Shown piece by piece: positions 51,952 to 63,480 of a stretch of 64,000 nt of DNA. This stretch comes from Cupriavidus sp. WGlv3 (GTDB lineage: Bacteria > Pseudomonadota > Gammaproteobacteria > Burkholderiales > Burkholderiaceae). Each line of letters begins with the position of its first letter. Within the stretch, counting starts at the first letter, position 1. The notes under the pieces are model-generated. The model saw nothing but the letters and a program-made list of their open reading frames with translations, was not told where the DNA came from and made no database searches. The position numbers were made by a program, and so were the translations under genes. The stretch spans positions 124,001-188,000 of the forward strand of contig NZ_JALHRX010000006.1 in assembly GCF_023952475.1 (NCBI RefSeq), read 5' to 3'.

Positions 51952-53325
51952 TTAGTCGGCAATGGCTTCCAGCGCCCTGCCGCGGGTTTCGATGCCGAAC
52001 CGGAGCACGATTGCCGCCGCGGCAAGGAAACACAGCGCGCCCAGACAGAACACGCCAGCTTGCCCCGCGACGGGCAGCACCAGACCCACCAGCGTCGGCC
52101 CCAGCAGCGAGCCGATGCGCCCCACCGTCGAAGCCATGCCACAGCCAGAAGCGCGAGCGCGCGTGGGATAGAGCTCCGGCGTGTAGGTATAGAGAACCGC
52201 CCACATGCCGAACATGAAGAACTGCATCATGCCGCCGGAGAGGAATAGCGCCAGCGGCTCCGACGCCGAGCCAGCGACCCGACCATAGATAAAGACCATG
52301 CACGCCCCACCGACCAGCGTCGCCACGCAGGCAGGCTTGCGTCCCCAGCGCTCCACCACCCACGCCGCCCAAAGGAAGCCCGGAATCCCGCCGATCGAGA
52401 TGTACACCGTGTACAACACGGACTTGGTCACATCCAGCCCGGATTGCTGCAGCAGCGCGCCGATCCATGTATTGAGGCCATAGAACCCCAGCAGGGCAAA
52501 GAACCACAGCCCCCAGACAGTCAGGGTCCGGCTGCGGTACGCGCGCGACCACAGCACGCGCAATCCCGTCGCCTCCGGCTCCGCCGCCGCAGCCGCCGGA
52601 GTGACTTCCGGCAATGCATCAAGCTTCATCCGCCGCATCACCGACTGCTCGATACGGTCGACGATCGCTGCGGCTTCCGCATGGCGCCCCTGCGATTCCA
52701 GCCAGCGCGGAGACTCGGGCACGAAGCGCCGAACCACGATCAGGAAGAGCGCCGGCACCGCACCAAGCAGGAACATCGTGCGCCAGGTATAGGCGCTCAG
52801 CACGTAGTACGACATCAGGCCAGCGCAGATGAACGCGATCGGCCAGTTGCCGTCCATCAATGCCAGGTACTTGCCGCGCTGCCGCGCCGGAATGAACTCC
52901 GACATCAGCGTCTGTGCCAGCGGCAGTTCCATGCCCATGCCGATTCCGAGCAGGAGCCGGTATGCGCCTAGTTCCATGGGGTTGCTCGCGGTCGAACAGA
53001 GATAGCTGCCCACGCCCCAGATGATCATGCTGACCTGGAACACGGGCTTGCGTCCGAACCTGTCGGCAAGCATTCCCGAGCTGAGCGCGCCGACGGCCAT
53101 GCCGACAAAGCTGGCGCTTCCCAGCATGCCCGCTTGCGCAGCGGTCAAGCCAAACTCCGTGCGTATCGAACCCAGCAAATACGTCATCATGGCCAGGTCG
53201 AGATTGTCAAAGAAGAAGGCCAGCGCAATGATTGCAAACAGAAGGCGGTGATACCCGCATACGGGCAGCCGTTCCAGGCGGTCGCCGGTGCGCACGCGCA
53301 TCAGCTCGAGAGGGGTGTGCTTCAT
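51952..53325 (-). CDS. MFS transporter (sugar/acid porter type)
   Basis: A 457-residue MFS protein with 12 membrane segments. FFFDNLDLAMMTYLLGSIRT at the N terminus places it with aromatic-acid/organic-acid transporters; GMLADRFGRKPVFQVSMIIW and ESPRWLESQGRHAEAAAIVD are loop motifs of the family, and TPELYPTRARASGCGMASTV is in the second half. It is placed 225 bases after the PNPOx-like gene of the RidA-PurA operon, with an intrinsic terminator between them, so it has its own transcript but probably the same pathway. Confidence 0.85.
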   Translation of the reverse strand: MKHTPLELMRVRTGDRLERLPVCGYHRLLFAIIALAFFFDNLDLAMMTYLLGSIRTEFGLTAAQAGMLGSASFVGMAVGALSSGMLADRFGRKPVFQVSMIIWGVGSYLCSTASNPMELGAYRLLLGIGMGMELPLAQTLMSEFIPARQRGKYLALMDGNWPIAFICAGLMSYYVLSAYTWRTMFLLGAVPALFLIVVRRFVPESPRWLESQGRHAEAAAIVDRIEQSVMRRMKLDALPEVTPAAAAAEPEATGLRVLWSRAYRSRTLTVWGLWFFALLGFYGLNTWIGALLQQSGLDVTKSVLYTVYISIGGIPGFLWAAWVVERWGRKPACVATLVGGACMVFIYGRVAGSASEPLALFLSGGMMQFFMFGMWAVLYTYTPELYPTRARASGCGMASTVGRIGSLLGPTLVGLVLPVAGQAGVFCLGALCFLAAAAIVLRFGIETRGRALEAIAD

Positions 53326-53346
53326 CTTGTCTCCAGTCGTTCTAGT

Positions 53347-53368
53347 GCCAGTGCTCTATGGCACTGGC
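53347..53368. repeat. inverted repeat upstream of the MFS gene
   Basis: GCCAGTGC (53347-53354) and GCACTGGC (53361-53368) form a perfect 8-bp hairpin with a 6-base loop, 21 bases before the MFS start codon. It may be an operator or a 5' leader structure. Confidence 0.45.
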
Positions 53369-53501
53369 GGCAAGCGATAACGCGTGGCTGCGCCATCGTT
53401 CGCTACTGTCGCTCGCGGGCGAGTGCGCGACGCGCGCCGGAACGCCAAGGTCTGTCTCGCAGGCGCCAAGGCATTGGAGGCGCTCCGAAGCCACCGGACA
53501 T

Positions 53502-53528
53502 AAAAAAAGAGGCGCCGAAGCACCTCTT
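53502..53528 (-). terminator. rho-independent terminator of the ridA-purA2-PNPOx operon
   Basis: On the minus strand GAGGTGC, the tetraloop TTCG and GCGCCTC, then a run of seven T's. It begins 22 bases after the PNPOx-like stop codon. A textbook UUCG-capped terminator. Confidence 0.9.
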
Positions 53529-53549
53529 CATGTCATGCGATGGCGAGCC

Positions 53550-54176
53550 CTACTTCCCCGCAAACCGATGGGGATCGAACGCTTCCGGCGGCAGACCGGA
53601 CAGCGTCGCACCGGACTGAAACGGATAGCGCAGGTACGGCGCGCGCGGCTGCCCTGGCGGCGAATACTGTCCGTCAGCGAGGATGCGCTTCTTCGCGCTC
53701 AACTCGCGGATCTCGCAGCGATAGGCCACGATCTGGCTGGCCGCGCCATCCTCGATCGGCGAGTAGTCCTTCTCGGGCCGGAACTTGTCCAGCGCCTGGT
53801 ACTGGTGCGCACGCACCTCATCGGTACTGTCACGCAGCCGGACTTCACAGCGCGCAATGACGCTGAAATACTCGAGGCTGGTGTTCTGGCCCTTTGGCGC
53901 CTTCAACAAGGCCACCGGCCGATCGATTTCGATCGTGACCAGCGGGTTCGCCCGGATCGCCGTGGCAAGCTTGCCGAACCTGGAACTGTGGATCAGGAAC
54001 GCGTCTCCGGTAAAGGTAAAGCTCTGCGCGGTGATGTAGGGGTAAGGCTCGTCATGCACCGCAACCCGGCAGATCAGCTCGTTCTTCAGGAAGGCTTCAA
54101 TGGCCGGCCAGTCGGTCCAGGCGAGGTCGGTCCGGCGCATCTCGCTGCGCAGGTAGGCAGGGGTCGTGCTAGTCAT
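53550..54176 (-). CDS. PNPOx-like FMN-binding protein
   Basis: A 208-residue split-beta-barrel flavoprotein related to pyridoxamine phosphate oxidase. Indicative parts: RVAVHDEPYPYITAQSFTFT, then ALLIHSSRFGKLATAIRANP, where the family's FMN-phosphate-binding strand lies, and LVTIEIDRPVALLKA. The C-terminal half has RFRPEKDYSPIEDG and ends EAFDPHRFAGK. The ATG overlaps the stop of the PurA-like gene (ATGA), so it is translated together with it. Function unknown; such proteins reduce small substrates or bind F420/FMN. Confidence 0.75.
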   Translation of the reverse strand: MTSTTPAYLRSEMRRTDLAWTDWPAIEAFLKNELICRVAVHDEPYPYITAQSFTFTGDAFLIHSSRFGKLATAIRANPLVTIEIDRPVALLKAPKGQNTSLEYFSVIARCEVRLRDSTDEVRAHQYQALDKFRPEKDYSPIEDGAASQIVAYRCEIRELSAKKRILADGQYSPPGQPRAPYLRYPFQSGATLSGLPPEAFDPHRFAGK

Positions 54177-55549
54177 GGTGTGGTCTGCTGGGTGGGTTCA
54201 AGAAGCCGCATCTGCGTGCGTTCCGGTCCTAGTCCGATGCCGCGCAAGGGTCGACCGATGGCCTGCGCCAGCCATTCGAGCAGCGCTTCAAGCTGCGGGG
54301 GCAGCGGCGAGGCGGGATTCGTCGGTATGGCGTCGTGCGCGAACGCCGGAAACTGCAACACGCGCTGGCTTGCGCTACCGGCCTCGCCAGCGACGACTGG
54401 AATGCAACGCTCGGGCGTATGGGAAAAGGCAGCCAGGCTGTCGCATTTGTTGAGATACACCTCGTCGACGCCGGCCTGCTGTATCGCGAGCCGCAGTTGC
54501 TCAACGTCAAGCAGGCCCACGCGCCGTGGCCGGCCGGTGCCGGTGCCGTACTCGTTCGCCAGCATCCGGATGGCCACGCCGGTCGAGAACGCATCCGCTT
54601 CGGCAAGCAACTTGAGCGGATCGTGGCTGGCCGCTTCGTCGGCGCGGCCGCGGCCCGCGTGTGCCGCCGCGGCGCAGTACGCCTCGGAACGCTGCCCGCC
54701 CAGTTCGTTCGGCAGCGGGCCGTTGCCGACCCGGGAGACGATGGCCTTGGCCACGCCGATGGTCTTGCGGTGATACCGGCACGGCAGATCTCCACCTACG
54801 TAGGCATAGGCGGGGAGCGTATGGCTGGACGTGACCCACGGCTGGATGCCATGCACCACATCCAGCATCACCGACTGCGCGCCCTCGAACAGTACCCTTG
54901 CACCGGCCTCGACCCGCCGCAACAGCGCGACAGCATCATTCGTCACGAACGGCCGAACCACCCTCCACGCGCGGCGCATGCCGTCCACCATCGCCGCTAT
55001 GGCCTCGTCATCGTCGTCGGCCTGCGATGCCAGCCGGGTCATCAGTTCGAACACGCGGTCCTCGTCACACCACAGGTCGCGCAACTGGAACGCAACGCGC
55101 TCGGCGCCCTGTATCCGGGCCGCCATATCGGCGTAGCACGGACCGATGCCGTTGCCGGTGGTGCCGATCCGTGCACCATCGCGGCGGTCCGCCAGCACAT
55201 GCCGCGGCTGAACCAGCGGACACCTGTCGCTGATTGTCAGCCGTCCCTCCAGGCTGATACCTTGGGCGGCCAGCATCGCAATCTCGGATGCCAGCTGCTG
55301 CAACCCGACCACGCAGCCCGAGCCGATGTAAAGCGCAACGCCCGGGTGCAGCACCCCAGAAGGCACTTGCCGCAGCCGCAGCGCACCGGCGGGCGTGGCG
55401 ATGGTATGTCCGGCGTTGGCCCCGCCATTGAAACGCGCAATCACGTCATACTCGGCAGCGAGGTGATCAACGATTCGGGCCTTGCCCTCGTCGCCATATT
55501 GCAGGCCCACCAGGACGTCGGCGTAGCCGGCCCTTGTCGCGGCGCCCAT
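54173..55549 (-). CDS. divergent adenylosuccinate synthetase paralogue
   Basis: A 458-residue protein of the PurA family, which uses GTP to join Asp to the C6 of IMP. Catalytic residues are kept: Asp20 and Lys23 in YGDEGKARIVD and His48 in NGGANAGHTI. The IMP-contact loop reads GTTGNGIGPCYADM, Asn in place of the usual Arg (GRGIGPAYED), and QPRHVLAD replaces MPYHxxLD. VLFEGAQSVMLDVVHGIQPW, RVGNGPLPNELGG, TGRPRRVGLLD and LGPERTQMRL are family blocks. It is not the housekeeping copy: it sits in an operon between RidA and a PNPOx-like gene with no purine genes. A new amide- or amine-ligation activity on another substrate is plausible. Confidence 0.85.
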   Translation of the reverse strand: MGAATRAGYADVLVGLQYGDEGKARIVDHLAAEYDVIARFNGGANAGHTIATPAGALRLRQVPSGVLHPGVALYIGSGCVVGLQQLASEIAMLAAQGISLEGRLTISDRCPLVQPRHVLADRRDGARIGTTGNGIGPCYADMAARIQGAERVAFQLRDLWCDEDRVFELMTRLASQADDDDEAIAAMVDGMRRAWRVVRPFVTNDAVALLRRVEAGARVLFEGAQSVMLDVVHGIQPWVTSSHTLPAYAYVGGDLPCRYHRKTIGVAKAIVSRVGNGPLPNELGGQRSEAYCAAAAHAGRGRADEAASHDPLKLLAEADAFSTGVAIRMLANEYGTGTGRPRRVGLLDVEQLRLAIQQAGVDEVYLNKCDSLAAFSHTPERCIPVVAGEAGSASQRVLQFPAFAHDAIPTNPASPLPPQLEALLEWLAQAIGRPLRGIGLGPERTQMRLLEPTQQTTP

Positions 55550-55552
55550 CGC

Positions 55553-56017
55553 CTAGGCGTCCAGCGCAAAGGTTGCCTCGATCTCGACCGGGGCACCGAA
55601 CGGAAGGCTCGCCACGCCGAGCGCAAGGCGGGCGTGGCGCCCGCGCTCGGCAAAGATCCGGTTGAGAAGCTCCGACGCGGCGTTGATCACCAGCGGCGCA
55701 TCGTTGAAACCCGGATCCGTTGCAACGTAGCCGCCTACCCGCACGATGCCCCGGATCCGTTCGAAATCGCCATCGGTTGCGGCGGCCACCCAGCCCAGCA
55801 GGTTGGCCAGGCAAAGCCGTGCCGCCGCCTGCGCCGCTTCGACGCTGACCGCGCCGGGAACCTTGCCGACAAACACGGGATTGCCGTCCTGCAGCGGCAG
55901 CTGTCCCGATATCGTCAGCAAGCCACGGTGCAGCGTGTACGGGACATAAAGCGCCTTGGGCATTTCGGCGGCAGGCAGGACGATGCCCGCTGCCTGGATA
56001 CGATCCATCACTGACAT
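55553..56017 (-). CDS. RidA-family protein
   Basis: A 154-residue YjgF/YER057c/UK114 protein. RidA proteins hydrolyse reactive enamines or imines, and some work as dedicated deaminases. Core: RGLLTISGQLPLQDGNPVFV, AAARLCLANLLGWVAAATDG and RHARLALGVASLPFGAPVEI, with Arg in the site of the catalytic residue. GAGGAG before the ATG at 56015-56017 supports this start. First gene of the operon, 3 bases before the PurA-like gene, so a role in releasing an amine from a pathway intermediate is likely. Confidence 0.88.
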   Translation of the reverse strand: MSVMDRIQAAGIVLPAAEMPKALYVPYTLHRGLLTISGQLPLQDGNPVFVGKVPGAVSVEAAQAAARLCLANLLGWVAAATDGDFERIRGIVRVGGYVATDPGFNDAPLVINAASELLNRIFAERGRHARLALGVASLPFGAPVEIEATFALDA

Positions 56018-56164
56018 ACTCACTCCTCGACTTGGACAAATGCCGACGGAGCAAGCACGGTGCTGGCCATCCGGCGGCACCTAGACTGTGCCGCAGGGCC
56101 CATGCCTCGATTCGCGCCTTGACGCCAGTTGATGTCGCGCAGATGCCAACCGGCAGCCTGACGC

Positions 56165-56950
56165 CTACTCGCCGGTCCGGTCGCGGAAATACTCGGTGGG
56201 GGTCATGCCAAGCGCTCGTCTGAACATGGCGCTGAATGCGCTTGGACTCTCGTATCCAAGCTGCAGTGCGATGTCCGTGACATGGCACCCCTCGGCAAGC
56301 AGGCGAACCGCGGCCATTAGCCGCGCCTGCTGCTTCCAGCGGCTGTATGTCATCCCCGTTTCTTCCGGAAACAGACGGATGATGGTCCGCTCGCTGGCGC
56401 CAACCGAGCGGCTCCACGTCTGGACCGAGGTCTCGTCCGAGGGATCGTCGAGAATCTTCGCGCAGATCTTGCCCAGGCGTGGGTCCCGGGGCATTGGCAG
56501 ATGCAGCGGGACCACCGAAAGCGGACGCAACTCCTGCAGCAGAAGCTGCACCACCAGGCCGTCGCGGCTGCCTTCGTCATAGGCCAGCGGCATGCGCACG
56601 GCGGCCGAGATCAGCTCGCGCAGCAGCGGCGGCACCGCGACCACGCAACAGCCGTGCAACTCGCCCGGTACGGCATCTTCGCGGACGTAGATGGTGCGCA
56701 TCTCGACATCGCCGCACGCCTGCATGGCGTGCTTGATGTTGCAAGGCACCCAGACGGCGCGCTGGGGCGGCACCACCCACGAACCGAAGTCGGTGGTGAC
56801 CAGGATAGCCCCCACGTAGGCATAGATCAGTTGCGCGCGCGGATGCGAATGCGGGGCGATATAAAACCCATCCTTCAGCTTGCGCGCCATGCCGCCGACC
56901 GGCTGCGCTATCGCCTGGTAGTCATCGCGGTTCTCGCTTTTTCCGAACAT
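56165..56950 (-). CDS. AraC-family regulator with cupin N-terminal domain
   Basis: A 261-residue regulator with a cupin sensing domain (GFYIAPHSHPRAQLIYAYVG and WVPCNIKHAM, with metal-binding-like His residues) and an AraC HTH domain (SVGASERTIIRLFPEETGMT, VTDIALQLGYESPSAFSAMF). The start at 56950 is set by the cupin N terminus; the frame runs to 57082. It lies between the RidA operon (downstream, same strand) and the divergent formamidase-like gene, and is the likely regulator of both. Confidence 0.87.
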   Translation of the reverse strand: MFGKSENRDDYQAIAQPVGGMARKLKDGFYIAPHSHPRAQLIYAYVGAILVTTDFGSWVVPPQRAVWVPCNIKHAMQACGDVEMRTIYVREDAVPGELHGCCVVAVPPLLRELISAAVRMPLAYDEGSRDGLVVQLLLQELRPLSVVPLHLPMPRDPRLGKICAKILDDPSDETSVQTWSRSVGASERTIIRLFPEETGMTYSRWKQQARLMAAVRLLAEGCHVTDIALQLGYESPSAFSAMFRRALGMTPTEYFRDRTGE

Positions 56951-57087
56951 GGCGTCTTTGCGATAGTGGTTGTCATCCAGCGGCGCGCGCCGCAAAACGC
57001 GGATACGTATCTTTGGCCGGACGCGACAAGCGTCGCAACGACCCAATGGTATCGAAGCATCGATCCCAACGTCTGGAGCCAAATTTA

Positions 57088-57945
57088 ATGTCAGTGTATC
57101 GAAACTTCAACCAGGAAGAACTGGACCAGCAGTACAACGTCAGGGCTGGAATCCCCGGGTTCCAGGACATCTTCAAGCGATGGGACGACACCAGCGCCAC
57201 GTTCCGTCGCAACCATCTGGTCAAGCCCGATCTTGCGTATGGTGCACACGCTTTGCAGGCGCTCGACTTCTTCCCGGCAGCCACCGCAAAGCGCCCGCTG
57301 CTGGTCTTCATTCATGGCGGTTATTGGCAATCGCTGGACAAGTCCGACTTCAGCTTCGTTGCCGCGCCCTACCTGCAGCGCGATATCAACGTCGCGGTGG
57401 TGAACTACCGCCTGGCACCGGATGTGGGCATGGCCGAAATTGTCCGCGACAATCAGGAGGCAGTGGCATGGCTCTACCGGCATGCCGACGAACTGGGATT
57501 CGATCCGGATCGCATCTTCTTGTCCGGCCACTCAGCCGGCGGCCATCTCACCGCCACGCTGGCGGCAACGGACTGGGCTGCCTTCGGCGTACCGGCGGAT
57601 ATCCTCAAGGGAGGTTGCGCGATCAGCGGCTTGTATGACCTGGAGCCGATCCGGCTGTGCTACCTCAACCAGGTGGTCGGTCTGACCGAGGCGGACGTTG
57701 CCCACTACAGCCCGATCCATCATGTCCCGAAAGCCAAACTGCCCATGATCCTGACCGTCGGCGGCGATGAATCGCCGGAGTACCACCGGCTGCAGCGCGA
57801 ATACCAGGCGCTGCTGGGCGAATGCGGCTTCGCCGTGCAGGTGGTGGTGCAGGAGCGCGGCCACCATTTCGATGCGGTCGACCTGCTGGGCGAAGCCGAA
57901 GGTCCACTGGCCGACGCGGTGTTGCGGATGATTGCGCGCGCCTGA
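57088..57945 (+). CDS. alpha/beta hydrolase of kynurenine-formamidase-like type
   Basis: A 285-residue alpha/beta hydrolase. HGGYW (76-80) is the oxyanion signature of arylformamidases and esterases of the HSL type; the nucleophile is Ser149 in SGHSAGGHLTA; the acid is probably in VGGDESPE and the His in ERGHHFDAVD. GGAG at 57074 supports the ATG at 57088. It is divergent from the AraC gene and so shares a regulator with the RidA-PurA operon. Amide or ester hydrolysis in that pathway is likely. No kynurenine pathway genes are present. Confidence 0.85.
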   Translation: MSVYRNFNQEELDQQYNVRAGIPGFQDIFKRWDDTSATFRRNHLVKPDLAYGAHALQALDFFPAATAKRPLLVFIHGGYWQSLDKSDFSFVAAPYLQRDINVAVVNYRLAPDVGMAEIVRDNQEAVAWLYRHADELGFDPDRIFLSGHSAGGHLTATLAATDWAAFGVPADILKGGCAISGLYDLEPIRLCYLNQVVGLTEADVAHYSPIHHVPKAKLPMILTVGGDESPEYHRLQREYQALLGECGFAVQVVVQERGHHFDAVDLLGEAEGPLADAVLRMIARA

Positions 57946-58871: not shown

Positions 58872-59894
58872 CTATTCGACCCGGATGTGCTTCTCCTCGA
58901 TCAGCCGGGCCCAGCGCGTCACCTCGCCGCTGAAGTAGTCGGCAAACGCGGGCCCGCCGGCCGCGGGGCTGAAGCCCGCGCTGACGATGCGCCCGCGCAC
59001 CGACTCGGCCGCCAGCATGCGTGCGACCGAGGCGGCCACCTTGTCGACGATCGGCCGGGGCGTGCCCGCCGGCATCATCAGGCCGGTCCAGTTCTCGACG
59101 ATCAGCTCCGGATAGCCGGCCTCGGCCACGGTCGGCACGTCGGGCAGCAGCGGATGGCGCTCGCGCGTGGTCACGGCCAGTGCGCGCAGCTTGCCGCCTT
59201 TCACATAGGCGAGCGACTCGGGGAAGTTGGAGAAGACCACGTCGATCTGGCCGCCGATCAGGTCGGTCATCGACGGCGCGCCGCCCTTGTACGGCACATG
59301 GGTGAAGCTGGTGCGGGTCTGGCTTTCGAACAGCGCCAGCGTCAGGTGCGGCGGCGTGCCGTTGCCGCTGGAGCCGGCGTTCAGCTTGGACTGCTGCGCC
59401 GCCGCGGCGAGATCCCTCATCGACTTGATCGGCGAGCTGGCCGGCACCACCACCATCATCGGCGACGAGGCGATCCGCGCCACCGGCACCAGGTCTTTCT
59501 GCATGCTGAACGGCAGCTTGGGGAACAAGGTCACGTTGGACGCGTGCGTCAGCGTCACCGCCAGCCAGGTGTAGCCGTCGGGCGGTGCCTTGGCGACCTG
59601 CTCGGCGCCGATATTGGCATTGCCGCCCGGCCGGTTGTCCACCACGATGGGCTTCTTCCACTCTTCGGAGAGCTGGTGGCCGACCATGCGCGCCATGATG
59701 TCGGTGAGGCCGCCGGCCGCGAACGGGACCACGTACCGGATCGGCTTGCTCGGAAAGTCCGCGGCGGCGGCATCGCTGCCGCCCTGCGCCGCGGCAGGCC
59801 GTGGCGCCAGCGCAGCGAGGGCCGATACAACTGACAAGGCAAGCAGCACGCGGTTCAGGTGCCTGCGCGCGCCGCACATCAAGCGTCGATCCAT
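58872..59894 (-). CDS. Bug-type periplasmic receptor of the sulfolactate operon
   Basis: A 340-residue TctC-like receptor with an N-terminal signal (LLALSVVSALAALAPRPAAA), then DFPSKPIRYVVPFAAGGLTD, IVVDNRPGGNANIGAEQVAK and HVPYKGGAPSMTDLIGGQID. It is 57 bases after comC in the same direction. In this operon it probably binds sulfolactate; the TTT membrane subunits (called SlcF/SlcG elsewhere) are not in the window. Confidence 0.9.
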   Translation of the reverse strand: MDRRLMCGARRHLNRVLLALSVVSALAALAPRPAAAQGGSDAAAADFPSKPIRYVVPFAAGGLTDIMARMVGHQLSEEWKKPIVVDNRPGGNANIGAEQVAKAPPDGYTWLAVTLTHASNVTLFPKLPFSMQKDLVPVARIASSPMMVVVPASSPIKSMRDLAAAAQQSKLNAGSSGNGTPPHLTLALFESQTRTSFTHVPYKGGAPSMTDLIGGQIDVVFSNFPESLAYVKGGKLRALAVTTRERHPLLPDVPTVAEAGYPELIVENWTGLMMPAGTPRPIVDKVAASVARMLAAESVRGRIVSAGFSPAAGGPAFADYFSGEVTRWARLIEEKHIRVE

Positions 59895-59951
59895 GATTTG
59901 TCTCCGGTAGTTATGGCCGGCCCATCTAAGCGTGGGTCCGTTGTGAGGAAA

Positions 59952-60974
59952 TCAATGCGGGGCGCCAACCTCCTCGCCCGCCAGCAATTGCAGTTCACGC
60001 CACAGCGCGTCGGGCACGTCGACGCCGTGCGCTGCCGCCTGCGCCTGCGCGGTTACACGGCGGTCGCCCGGCACGCGTGTGCCTTCGTCGTCCAGCATCG
60101 CGGCCAGCAGCGCTTCCACGCGCGCGGCGTAGACCTGCGAGCCGGCGAAGGCGCCGGGGTCCAGCACGAAGAACAACTGGCCGATGCGCGGACGGTTGCC
60201 CGCGTCGCTGAAGAAGGAATCGGCCTCGGCGCCGAACTGCGCCCCGGCCAGCGACGTCACCAGCAGCTCCACCAGCAACGCCAGCATCGCGCCCTTGACT
60301 CCACCCGCCGGCAGCATCGAGCCGCGCAGCGCGGCCTGGGCGTCGGTGGTCGGCTGGCCGGCCTCATCCAGCGCCCATCCGACCGGTATCGGCTTGCCGT
60401 GCTTCGCCGCCACCATGATCTTGCCGCGCGCGACTTCCGACAGCGACAGGTCGATCACCACCGGCGCGTGGCCCTGCCGCGGGAATACCGCCGCAACCGG
60501 GTTGGTGCCGAACAGCGGTCGCTTGCCACCCCACGCCGGCATGGCCGCGGGCGAATTGCCCATGGCCATGCCGACCATGCCGGCGCGCGCCACGGCCTCC
60601 AGTGGCAGCGCGGCGGCGCCGAAGTGATGGCTGTTGGTGACCGCGGCCACGCCGACGCCGGATGCGCGCGCGCGTGCCACGGCTTCGGCGATGGCCAGGT
60701 CGCACGCCGCGAAGGCAAAGCCGCAGCGCGCGTCGACCAGCACCGCGCTGGCGCGCGTGCCCTGTACCGTCGGCTCGGCGTTGCCGTCGACCCGGTCATG
60801 GCGCAGGTGCGCCACGTACATCGGCACGCGCGAGACCCCGTGCGACGGCAGCCCCGCTGCATCAGCCCGCACCAGCGCCGCTGCCGTCGCCTGCGCCTGC
60901 AGGGCGCTGGCCCCTGCCCGGCGCAGGCCCGCGGCAGCCACGCGCTCCAGTTCCTGCAACGCAATCCGGCTCAT
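59952..60974 (-). CDS. comC: (R)-sulfolactate dehydrogenase, Ldh/malate dehydrogenase family
   Basis: A 340-residue protein of the type-2 malate/L-lactate dehydrogenase family (NAD(P)-dependent, unlike classical LDH). Markers: ADAAGLPSHGVSRVPMYVAH with the catalytic His, AVTNSHHFGAAALPLEAVAR and MGNSPAAMPAWGGKRPLFGTNPVAAVFP. In sulfolactate-degrading bacteria ComC reversibly oxidises (R)-sulfolactate to sulfopyruvate and, with SlcC, turns the (S) form into the (R) form. The ATG overlaps the slcC stop (ATGA). Confidence 0.85.
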   Translation of the reverse strand: MSRIALQELERVAAAGLRRAGASALQAQATAAALVRADAAGLPSHGVSRVPMYVAHLRHDRVDGNAEPTVQGTRASAVLVDARCGFAFAACDLAIAEAVARARASGVGVAAVTNSHHFGAAALPLEAVARAGMVGMAMGNSPAAMPAWGGKRPLFGTNPVAAVFPRQGHAPVVIDLSLSEVARGKIMVAAKHGKPIPVGWALDEAGQPTTDAQAALRGSMLPAGGVKGAMLALLVELLVTSLAGAQFGAEADSFFSDAGNRPRIGQLFFVLDPGAFAGSQVYAARVEALLAAMLDDEGTRVPGDRRVTAQAQAAAHGVDVPDALWRELQLLAGEEVGAPH

Positions 60975-61906
60975 GGCATCTGCTCCAGCGATTGCCGCAC
61001 CTCGCGGGCGATCATCATCGATACGCGCGCATTGGCTTCGCGCGTCACGCCACCGACGTGCGGTGTCAGGATCAGGTTGGGCACGCCCCGCAGCGCGCTG
61101 CCCGCGGGCAGCGGCTCGCTGTCGAACACGTCCAGCGCGGCGCCGGCGAGGTGGCCGGCCCGCAGCGCATCGGCAAGCGCCGCCTCGTCCACCACGCCAC
61201 CGCGCGCGGTATTGACCAGCACCGCGCCGGACTTCATCGCCGCCAGGCGGCCGACATCGATCAGGTTGCGCGTGGCCGCCACCAGCGGCACATGCAGGCT
61301 GACCGCGTCCGCCTGCGCCAGCAGCGCGTCGAGCGGCACGCAGGCCACCCCGGTGGCGGACCAGACCGGATCATCGGCCGGCAACATCGGATCGCTGGCA
61401 ATGACCTCCATGCCGAAGGCGCGCGCCAGCGCAGCGGTCTGCCGGCCGATGTCGCCAAAGCCGATCAGGCCCAGCGTCTTGCCCAGCGCCTCCCGGCCCT
61501 CCGACAGCCTGGCCCGCGGCCACTGGCCGTCCGCCACCTCGGCACTGGACAGGTAGGCGCCGCGCAGCAGCACGGCGGCCGTGGTCACCACGTACTCCGC
61601 CACCGAACGCGCATTGGCCCCGGCCGCGGGTATCACGCGAATACCGCGTTCGCGGCAGGCGGCGACGTCGATATTGTCCAGCCCCACGCCGAGCCGCCCC
61701 ACCACCCGCAAGGCCGGCGCGCTGGCGAGCAGCGCTGCGTCCACCTGGGTCCGGTTGCGCACCACCAGCGCGTGCGCCCCGTCAAGGACCTCGAGCAACT
61801 CGCCGCGGCGATCGACCCAGCCCGGCTCGTAGCGCAGGTCGAAGCCGGCGCTCAGCGCCTGCACCGCGGCCGGATCCATGAACTCGCTGATGCAGATGCG
61901 CTTCAT
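60971..61906 (-). CDS. slcC: (S)-sulfolactate dehydrogenase
   Basis: A 311-residue D-2-hydroxyacid dehydrogenase-fold enzyme. Start [18 protein letters not shown]; cofactor loop LGLIGFGDIGRQTAALARAF; catalytic Arg in NTARGGVVDE and His in ILTPHVGGVTREA. Closest in form to SlcC, which oxidises (S)-sulfolactate to sulfopyruvate. The suyB stop overlaps the start; ATG codons at 61909 and 61906 are both possible (ATGATGA). The 3' end overlaps comC. In an operon with SuyAB and ComC this fits a racemising pair that feeds (R)-sulfolactate to SuyAB. Confidence 0.88.
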   Translation of the reverse strand: MKRICISEFMDPAAVQALSAGFDLRYEPGWVDRRGELLEVLDGAHALVVRNRTQVDAALLASAPALRVVGRLGVGLDNIDVAACRERGIRVIPAAGANARSVAEYVVTTAAVLLRGAYLSSAEVADGQWPRARLSEGREALGKTLGLIGFGDIGRQTAALARAFGMEVIASDPMLPADDPVWSATGVACVPLDALLAQADAVSLHVPLVAATRNLIDVGRLAAMKSGAVLVNTARGGVVDEAALADALRAGHLAGAALDVFDSEPLPAGSALRGVPNLILTPHVGGVTREANARVSMMIAREVRQSLEQMP

Positions 61907-63081
61907 CATGCCGACTCGTGGATGCGGGTCAGCACGAACTCGCGATGGCCGAGCGCCTCGGCCGCGGTCCAGCGGCCGTTGATGGTGGCCAGCATGCATT
62001 CCAGCAGCTTGTCGCCGGTCTGGTCCAGCGTCTGCTCGCGCTGCAGCAGGCCCGAGCAATCGACGTCCATGTGCTCGCTCATCAGGCGCACGGTGCGCGG
62101 GTTGGCGCACAGCTTGATCACCGGCACGATCGGGTTGCCGATCACGTTGCCCTGCCCGGTCGGGAAGAAATGGACCACGTAGCCGGCGGCCGCGCACAGC
62201 GTGACCATCTCGGCCGCGGCGGAAGACGAGTCCATGAACCACAGCCCCGGATGCGTCGGCGCCTCGGCCTTGTCGAGCACGCCGTCGACGGTGCACTTCT
62301 TGCCGATTTTCTGGATATTGCCCAGCGCCTTCTCTTCGATGGTAGTCAGGCCGCCGGCGATATTGCCCTTGGTCGGCTGCGACTCGGACAGGTCGGAGGT
62401 CTTCCAGCGGTCGATCATGCCCTGGTAGCGCTCGAACATCGCCATGAACTGGTGGCGCACGTCGTCGTTGGCGCAGCGCGCCGCGACGATATGCTCGCCG
62501 CCGGTCAGCTCGGAAGTCTCGCCGAACACCAGCGTGGTGCCCAGCGGATGCAGCTTGTCGAAGGCGTTGCCGACGGTCGGGTTGGCGCCGCAGCCCGAGG
62601 TGGTGTCCGATTCGCCGCACTTGGTCGACACCCACAGCTCGTTGATCGGACACTCCACGCGGTGCAGCGCGGTGGCGTATTGCACGAACTCGCGCGCGGC
62701 CCTGGAGGCGCGCATGATGGTGTCGTGGTCGCCGTGGCCCTCGATGCCGAAGCCGACCACCGGCTTGCCGGTCTGGGCGATGCCATCGACCACTTTCTTG
62801 GTCCAGCCCTCCTCGATACCGATCACCACCACCGCGGCGACGTTCGGGTTGCTGCCCGCGCCGATCAGCGTGCGGAAATGCAGGTCCAGGTCCGGCCCGA
62901 ACTGCAGGCGGCCGTACGGATGGGGAATCGCCATGGTGCCCTTGATCGCGGCGGCGACGGCCTCGGCGGCGGCGTTGGACAGGTCGTCCAGCGGCAGGAT
63001 GATGACGTGGTTGCGCACGCCGACGCGGCCATTGTCGCGGCGGTAGCCCCAGAAGGTGGTGTTTTGGTCGATCACGGACAT
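61906..63081 (-). CDS. suyB: (R)-sulfolactate sulfo-lyase, large subunit
   Basis: A 391-residue UxaA-family (altronate dehydratase-like) C-terminal subunit. [20 protein letters not shown] is the family's start, then [40 protein letters not shown] and [20 protein letters not shown]. With SuyA it removes sulfite from (R)-sulfolactate to give pyruvate, using iron. The ATG at 63081 has AAGGA eight bases upstream. Overlaps slcC by a few bases. SuyA and SuyB as separate genes and next to slcC-comC distinguish it from altronate or galactarate dehydratase. Confidence 0.92.
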
Positions 63082-63162
63082 GACGTGGATCCTTGGATGC
63101 GCGATGGAAGCGGAATTGAAGCGGAATGAAGGCGAATGGAACACAGGCGCGGCGCGCCCGGC

Positions 63163-63444
63163 TTACCAGCGCTTGGTCTTGATGTTGTGGACGTGGGCGT
63201 GCTGGCCGGCCTTGATCGGCGCCACCACCTTGCCGATGTCGATGCCGTACTTGTAGACCGTCTCGTTCACATCCATGTCGCGCAGCGCCACCTTGTGACC
63301 GATGGGAATCGGCTGCAGCGCGGTCACGGTCACGATCTTGTCTTCGTCCATGATCCAGGCATTGAGCTGGGTGCCGGGCTGGATCCCTTCCACCACGGCC
63401 ACCGCGACGGTGTCCTTGGCGTCATGAAGCACTACGTGAATCAT
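63163..63444 (-). CDS. suyA: (R)-sulfolactate sulfo-lyase, small subunit
   Basis: A 93-residue SAF-domain protein, first gene of the sulfolactate operon. MIHVVLHDAKDTVAVAVVEG, then VTALQPIPIGHKVALRDMDV and VVAPIKAGQHAHVHNIKTKR, the UxaA N-terminal type. The ribosome site GAGGAG is close to the ATG at 63442-63444. Works with SuyB; 81 bases separate the two. Confidence 0.92.
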   Translation of the reverse strand: MIHVVLHDAKDTVAVAVVEGIQPGTQLNAWIMDEDKIVTVTALQPIPIGHKVALRDMDVNETVYKYGIDIGKVVAPIKAGQHAHVHNIKTKRW

Positions 63445-63480
63445 CGTTGTCTCCTCTCTCTGTGGGTCGGGCGTGAAATC

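Follow-up and report, generated by a model that had tools for sequence, protein, structure and literature searches.

A divergent second PurA in a six-gene operon of Cupriavidus sp. WGlv3, possibly a spare adenylosuccinate synthetase

Organization of the locus

The stretch analysed here (the window, 64,000 nucleotides of Cupriavidus sp. WGlv3, contig NZ_JALHRX010000006.1, positions 124,001 to 188,000 of the forward strand) contains a six-gene operon in which one gene, here called purA2, encodes a second and divergent protein of the PurA (adenylosuccinate synthetase) family. The gene set named in an initial annotation of the locus, with RidA, a PNPOx-like protein, an AraC regulator, a divergent HGGYW hydrolase and an MFS (major facilitator superfamily) transporter around the PurA-like protein, has Pfam support for each member. 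The features are the following:

51952..53325, minus strand: MFS transporter gene (MFS_1/Sugar_tr in Pfam)
53506..53529, minus strand: terminator-like hairpin in the PNPOx/MFS gap (10 pairs and a T run)
53550..54176, minus strand: PNPOx-like gene (PF12900, Pyridox_ox_2), overlapping purA2 by ATGA
54173..55549, minus strand: purA2, PurA-family protein of 458 amino acids (PF00709) with Asn at E. coli position 131
55553..56017, minus strand: Rid-family gene (PF14588/PF01042), its ATG behind a GAGGAG-type site
56165..56995, minus strand: AraC-family regulator (HTH_18) with an AraC_binding/cupin-type N-terminal part
56996..57087, no strand: divergent AraC/hydrolase intergenic region, presumed regulatory from its sequence only
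57088..57945, plus strand: divergent alpha/beta hydrolase (BD-FAE/Abhydrolase_3) with HGGYW and GHSAGGHL motifs, its start being our choice

The RidA gene ends 3 nt before the start of purA2 and the junction of purA2 with the PNPOx gene is an ATGA overlap, so that a transcript shared by these three genes is likely, in line with the cotranscription proposed before. A stable fold followed by a T run was found in the PNPOx/MFS gap of 11 of the 14 Cupriavidus loci and of Herminiimonas, and in none of the remaining 13 of the 28 loci tested; the MFS gene may therefore form a separate transcription unit in Cupriavidus. Terminator-like sites in the scan of the region numbered 5, against a mean of 3.7 in shuffled sequences, and the regulatory-site scan returned no promoter-like site in 56996..57087.

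PurA2 keeps the residues of the adenylosuccinate synthetase site

PurA2 matches PF00709 with 313.7 bits over residues 12–447 (profile positions 1–415 of 416), which corresponds to a full-length domain. The canonical PurA of the same genome lies on another contig (G000:C109:311755-313032), scores 593.5 bits against 312.2 for PurA2 and shares 31% identity with it (tblastn). The description of a second, divergent PurA is thus borne out, and the possibility that purA2 is the only purA in the genome is refuted by the two proteins found. PurA2 scores below all five listed NCBIfam PurA equivalog cut-offs (the best two being 283.4 against 402 and 255.1 against 395.55), and a PurZ identity was ruled out by a score of 101.5 bits against the NCBIfam PurZ cut-off of 300.

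Residues were numbered after E. coli PurA (from NC_000913) and checked in 75 family rows, a survey made without L022 and the partial L087, L099 and L105. PurA2 keeps D13, K16, N38, H41, T129, R143, Q224, T239, R303, R305, K331 and D333, which we take to be catalytic positions or positions of the sites for inosine monophosphate (IMP), Asp and GTP. They are kept across the 75 rows, with single exceptions at Q224 (in L097) and K331 (in L066). In the numbering of PurA2 itself, Asp20, Lys23 and His48 are kept and TTGNGIGP stands in place of TTGRGIGP, exactly as had been described. Position 131, presumably part of the aspartate side of the active site, is Asn in 72 of the 75 rows, Gln in L075 and L078 and Lys in L077; the canonical rows have Arg (15 of 16) or, in Herminiimonas, Lys. 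The consensus changes of the subfamily are W11Y, G17A, L54Q, V72C, R131N, G253D and T271S.

A deep subfamily with three main gene settings

Relatives were collected by scanning a single genome for each species, which gave 74 loci (L033–L041 and L067 duplicate L013–L017, L021, L022 and L024–L026 and were left aside). In the tree, for which 78 of 99 rows were kept and 21 near-copies left out, PurA2 and all its relatives form one clade (support 100/100) on a long stem of 1.93 changes per column. By the calls of a home-made codon-score gene caller, from which the gene contexts were taken, the subfamily occurs in three main settings, types A, B and C; type A is that of the window. Types A and B join the actinobacterial rows and L066 in one group (support 100/99). 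An origin of types A and B inside the group from the candidate phyla radiation (CPR) and archaea is weakened, as a tree uniting the CPR/archaeal rows stays acceptable (p-AU 0.196). Types A and B share Y235Q, A245P and the loss of E. coli positions 355–359, none of which belongs to the type C consensus; these changes may leave room for an altered specificity or sensitivity of the A/B lineage.

The type A set comprises the divergent hydrolase, AraC, RidA, PurA2, PNPOx and MFS genes. The contexts that entered the counts were checked with tblastn, except L022, L044, L046, L048, L049 and L051; of these, L046, L048, L049 and L051 were rechecked by tblastn as L171, L176, L177 and L172, and L044 as L168. 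A conserved neighbourhood does exist, the arrangement being found in five named genera of Burkholderiales (Cupriavidus, Paraburkholderia, Herminiimonas, Pandoraea and Caballeronia), in one case on a C. zhejiangensis plasmid. Three genes are inserted between the PNPOx and MFS genes in L173, and the six genes also occur together in Pseudomonas typographi, there with a hydrolase that is not divergent, an AraC gene with a stop and a split MFS match. The six genes seem to travel as a unit, since the genes flanking them vary among genera; outside the six, no helpful recurrence across genera gave a clue to the substrate. A second Rid gene lies near the operon in L167 and L185, a second hydrolase gene in L015 and L016, and a gene for an NADP malic enzyme is also found near the operon of a Caballeronia plasmid.

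Type C is hosted by CPR bacteria and Woesearchaeota/Nanoarchaeota, and purB adjoins the purA gene in four loci. Type C loci led to 17 genomes (10 CPR, 7 archaeal), mostly drafts or metagenomes in which a second PurA may have been missed; in 15 of them a subfamily member is the sole PF00709 protein found. PurB above its curated cut-off was found in 13 of the 17, 12 of them among the 15 in which a single PurA was found. In the 14 other genomes searched for PF00709 a canonical PurA was present besides the subfamily member in all, the genome of L081 lying outside this search. By inference from these sole homologues and the accompanying PurB, Asn131 would be compatible with ordinary adenylosuccinate synthesis. 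R131N as a mark of lost adenylosuccinate chemistry is disfavoured, as the site residues are kept, Asn is shared by relatives that are the sole PurA homologue found in 15 of the 17 CPR/archaeal genomes and PurB is present in most, and the initial annotation's statement that this is not purine synthesis is not supported by these observations.

A malic enzyme gene follows the purA gene directly or within three genes in L071, L072, L074, L076, L077, L079, L080, L084 and L092, that is, in eight type C (CPR) loci and in an unclassed bacterium (L077), with Pfam run on L072 only; the pairing looks as if fumarate from aspartate were passed on to pyruvate. Relatives in other settings occur in Acrocarpospora, Catellatospora, Desulfuromonadaceae and others. 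Further PF00709 matches carry SCGMGVG (L122) and SCGLGIG (L123) in place of TTGRGIGP in Woesearchaeota, and two in Actinobacteria (L124 and L125) had no open frame with GDEGK in the frame search.

purA2 is lost from operons that keep the other five genes

A search with the PNPOx protein in 249 genomes of the Burkholderiaceae family gave 21 loci in 20 genomes, to which all six proteins were compared, 12 loci by one tblastn (8 of them with PurA2) and the window and 8 Cupriavidus loci by another. All 21 operons hold the other five genes and 17 hold PurA2. Those without it are L167 (Cupriavidus), L169 (genome G683) and L174 and L178 (both Pandoraea). Remnants of purA are seen in the gap of L169 (E 3.7e-12) and of L174 (E 7.7e-21), at a database size that we set. 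In the gap of L178 a suggestive purA start was dismissed as a remnant, its best E of 0.72 not being significant, and the 24 bases of the gap of L167 gave no purA match. In L186, which lies on the Caballeronia sp. NK8 plasmid pNK81, the purA2 match lacks residues 206–342, an internal deletion. The reverse loss was not seen, as PNPOx is missing beside a type A PurA2 in none of the 24 loci where it would be visible (a contig ends in L022, and other genes are split in L026 and L066).

Among the loci sampled, it is PurA2 that goes missing. With four of 21 operons lacking it, two of them with remnants, and the plasmid copy internally deleted, purA2 looks like an optional passenger of the operon, without which the other five genes can evidently persist. 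The initial proposal that PurA2 ligates or activates another substrate of the pathway is weakened by these same losses.

Each of the four genomes without PurA2 in the operon carries another extra PurA, namely type D in G028 and G683, type B in G538 and types A and B in G692. Type D is a canonical-like PurA paralogue (L027–L032 in Cupriavidus kin, L187 in G683) that keeps R131 and has TTLRGIGP for TTGRGIGP; the copy of G683 is 69–71% identical to two of the Cupriavidus ones. In the six Cupriavidus loci the type D gene diverges from a gene clustering with LysR. Type D is present in 6 of 59 genomes of Cupriavidus kin, G028 included, and none of the six has a type A PurA2. A link of type A with type B within Pandoraea was dismissed, since type B is present in 7 of 7 type A genomes but also in 28 of 32 overall.

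Partner proteins

The Rid protein belongs to the Rid superfamily (PF14588, 54.5 bits with a cut-off of 35; PF01042, 40.9 with a cut-off of 27.3). Since it stays below the cut-off of TIGR00004, the Rid family detoxifying hydrolase (21.6 against 106.25), it is best labelled RidA-like, not RidA proper. The motifs HAR and LP..A.VE.EA are invariant among 28 relatives, and the Arg of HAR is presumably the catalytic Arg of Rid proteins. The best NCBIfam match of the MFS protein is the aromatic acid/H+ symport family (287.4 bits, below the cut-off of 418.55), and its best transporter matches are mostly uptake families, all below cut-off. Among solved chains the hydrolase is closest to lipase 1 (9n8r, 170 bits) and 2pbl (91 bits), both of esterase/lipase kind, and then to kynurenine formamidase (4e11, 69 bits). 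Hydrolase relatives at E<=1e-60 were found in 18 of 399 Burkholderiales genomes, its own included (40–48% identity); near them, in six loci examined, none of the other operon genes was found except one MFS match of 25%.

Beside the operon, at 58872–63447, lie a sulfolactate-dehydrogenase-like gene, a phosphoglycerate-dehydrogenase-like gene and two galactarate-dehydratase-like genes, the latter two presumably of the UxaA/SuyAB type, together with a gene for a protein that we take to be of the Bug type and that has no NCBIfam match. This set is reminiscent of sulfolactate use, with all members below the curated equivalog cut-offs.

The sister lineage in a probable biosynthetic cluster

Type B was found in 19 Pandoraea loci and in Kitasatospora phosalacinea (L047, L052–L060, L062, L063, L065, L068, L069, L096, L101–L103 and L106), annotated by Pfam on one Pandoraea locus and by clustering in the rest. 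Its genes encode two PALP proteins, an ornithine-cyclodeaminase-type protein, PurA2, AurF, a transcarbamylase and a DAO protein, and a flavin-reductase-type gene follows the cluster in Pandoraea only. We take the first PALP and the ornithine-cyclodeaminase-type genes to be SbnA-/SbnB-like and the second PALP gene to be threonine-synthase-like. PurA2 and AurF are neighbours in 28 of 32 Pandoraea genomes, and the other four lack both; the PurA2 match of G658 begins only at residue 84.

Type B is a probable biosynthetic cluster, and its gene content suggests a diaminopropionate-derived, N-oxidised amino acid as product. Synthesis of diaminopropionate, N-oxidation of the AurF type and a transcarbamylase step could together yield an N-hydroxyurea or a related aspartate mimic. 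The diazeniumdiolate cluster of fragin includes an AurF relative (PMC5878181), L-alanosine has diaminopropionate as its proposed precursor (PMC11705231), and there are known transcarbamylases that act on diaminopropionate (PMC4581275). The strict companionship of PurA2 and AurF would fit self-resistance and also a pathway enzyme such as that of formycin A.

Selection and spread

All six operon genes are under purifying selection. Compared with L019, L020, L021 and L025, dN/dS is 0.14–0.21 for purA2, 0.12–0.24 for RidA and 0.11–0.19 for the hydrolase, and that of purA2 lies above those of AraC, PNPOx and MFS. Across six genomes (15 pairs) PurA2 shows 49–60% identity and canonical PurA 61–90%, a loose comparison, as genomes may have exchanged the operon. 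PurA2 is present at >=63% identity in 14 of 59 other genomes of Cupriavidus kin; among 399 evenly drawn Burkholderiales genomes only the window's own matched PurA2 or PNPOx, in a scan that scored a small number of initial candidates in each genome (no more than 4 in the rows listed for PurA2) and so may miss weak relatives.

Discussion

The residues for the synthesis of adenosine monophosphate (AMP) are kept, an essential enzyme is duplicated inside a regulated operon and its loss is tolerated by the rest, so that PurA2 looks like the protection of a housekeeping step. The reading that we favour, with a confidence somewhat short of even, is that PurA2 is a spare and possibly inhibitor-tolerant adenylosuccinate synthetase in an operon for the uptake or breakdown of a poison of the housekeeping PurA. 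We infer that PurA2 makes adenylosuccinate, that it is less sensitive to the inhibitor and that the operon substrate is this inhibitor. Acting on IMP, Asp and GTP, PurA2 would keep AMP synthesis going as the cell handles the inhibitor of its housekeeping PurA. Our guess for the substrate is a relative of hadacidin (N-formyl-N-hydroxyglycine), which might fit all operon genes. In this scenario a hadacidin-like N-acyl-N-hydroxy amino acid would be imported by the MFS carrier, the HGGYW hydrolase would strip its acyl (formyl) group, the flavin-type PNPOx protein would convert the N-hydroxy amino acid to an imine or oxime, and RidA would release ammonia and an oxo acid from the imine by hydrolysis. 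Hadacidin and hydantocidin phosphate are among the natural inhibitors of the adenylosuccinate synthetase step, and hadacidin is competitive with Asp, with reported Ki values of 0.19–10.5 µM (extract of PMC6136348).

Several observations weigh against this spare-enzyme reading. Among the six proteins PurA2 has the lowest identity in 14 of the 15 genome pairs and shares the lowest place in the other, which could reflect relaxed constraint or a new specificity. The CPR/archaeal enzymes share R131N in settings without an inhibitor context, the hydrolase is nearer to lipase 1 and 2pbl than to the formamidase, and the functions of the PNPOx and MFS proteins are family-level guesses. The argument from a spare PurA in the genomes without PurA2 in the operon is weak, given that 28 of 32 Pandoraea genomes have type B anyway. 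Every genome with AurF (28 of 28) also has the type B PurA2, as expected of a pathway enzyme, a role for which the second PurA of formycin A biosynthesis is a precedent (extract of PMC8724604).

A pathway enzyme, a PurA2 that has shifted to another amino donor or nucleotide acceptor in a GTP-driven joining, would account for its low conservation among the operon proteins, for the long stem branch, for Y235Q, A245P and the loss of 355–359 shared by types A and B outside the CPR/archaeal consensus, and for the retention beside AurF, with the formycin A case just mentioned as its precedent. This explanation is weakened by the repeated loss and decay of purA2 in type A operons, and it has to be reconciled with intact phosphate- and Asp-site residues and with six genes that include no phosphoribosyltransferase or lyase; we regard it as doubtful. 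Tolerated loss, intact site residues and a canonical copy elsewhere in the genome would also be expected of a plain regulated extra synthetase, which on induction would raise the AMP supply (or use GTP) with no inhibitor involved. Such an enzyme fails to explain why several genera carry a divergent protein instead of a canonical duplicate and why the sister lineage belongs to a cluster that is probably biosynthetic, and it appears a shade more doubtful still. That same place of the sister lineage would suit an operon making a small nitrogenous antimetabolite, exported by the MFS protein and with PurA2 as self-resistance; the mostly uptake-type (below cut-off) MFS matches and the lack of an obvious bond-forming enzyme besides the optional PurA2 speak against it, and we hold it to be the least likely of the explanations given here.

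A wider and more specific version of the spare-enzyme reading, itself unlikely, would have the operon as a catabolic island devoted to antimetabolites of the hadacidin class and equipped with its own tolerant PurA of CPR/archaeal type, and the sister lineage as a shield for Pandoraea and Kitasatospora producers of a diaminopropionate-derived N-hydroxyurea or diazeniumdiolate. If this were true, a PurA of the R131N type would be a genome-mining flag for compounds hitting AMP synthesis. Tolerance, if true, would by itself provide a marker gene for new inhibitors of AMP synthesis and hint at a bacterial breakdown route for such a compound. Among the matches listed in a keyword search of open-licence PubMed Central (PMC) papers we found no described pathway with this gene set, as the initial annotation had also stated, no description of the type B cluster and none of a bacterial breakdown route for an AMP-synthesis inhibitor of this kind. 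A deep PurA subfamily is set apart by this analysis, the sole PurA homologue found in many CPR/archaeal drafts and an accessory gene in two kinds of cluster elsewhere.

Comparison with known systems

PurZ, of the phage 2-aminoadenine pathway, belongs to the same superfamily as PurA2, which reaches about a third of its cut-off (101.5 bits against 300). The L-alanosine and diaminopropionate pathways (extracts of PMC11705231 and PMC4581275) resemble the cluster of the sister lineage in its PALP, ornithine-cyclodeaminase-type, AurF and transcarbamylase genes, whereas the window operon has none of these four. The second PurA of formycin A (extract of PMC8724604) is likewise a PurA duplicate with a specialised role, a likeness drawn by description only, but its partners are homologues of PurB, PurC and PurH encoded in a nucleoside cluster, and the window operon has no such genes.

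PurA proper (EC 6.3.4.4) has in common with PurA2 the full-length domain, the P-loop, the catalytic Asp and His and what we take to be the IMP-, Asp- and GTP-site residues; PurA2 differs in its 31% identity to the canonical copy, its scores below the equivalog cut-offs and its Asn131. The PurA of type C (CPR, Woesearchaeota/Nanoarchaeota) falls in one clade with PurA2 (100/100) and has common substitutions with it, but it is mostly the sole PurA homologue found in its genome, whereas PurA2 is here a second copy. Resistance may also be conferred by spare genes for insensitive targets, as with the second isoleucyl-tRNA synthetase against mupirocin. The gene content of the operon may be compatible with making or handling an inhibitor, and PurA2 resembles such genes in duplicating an essential enzyme in divergent form next to specialised genes.

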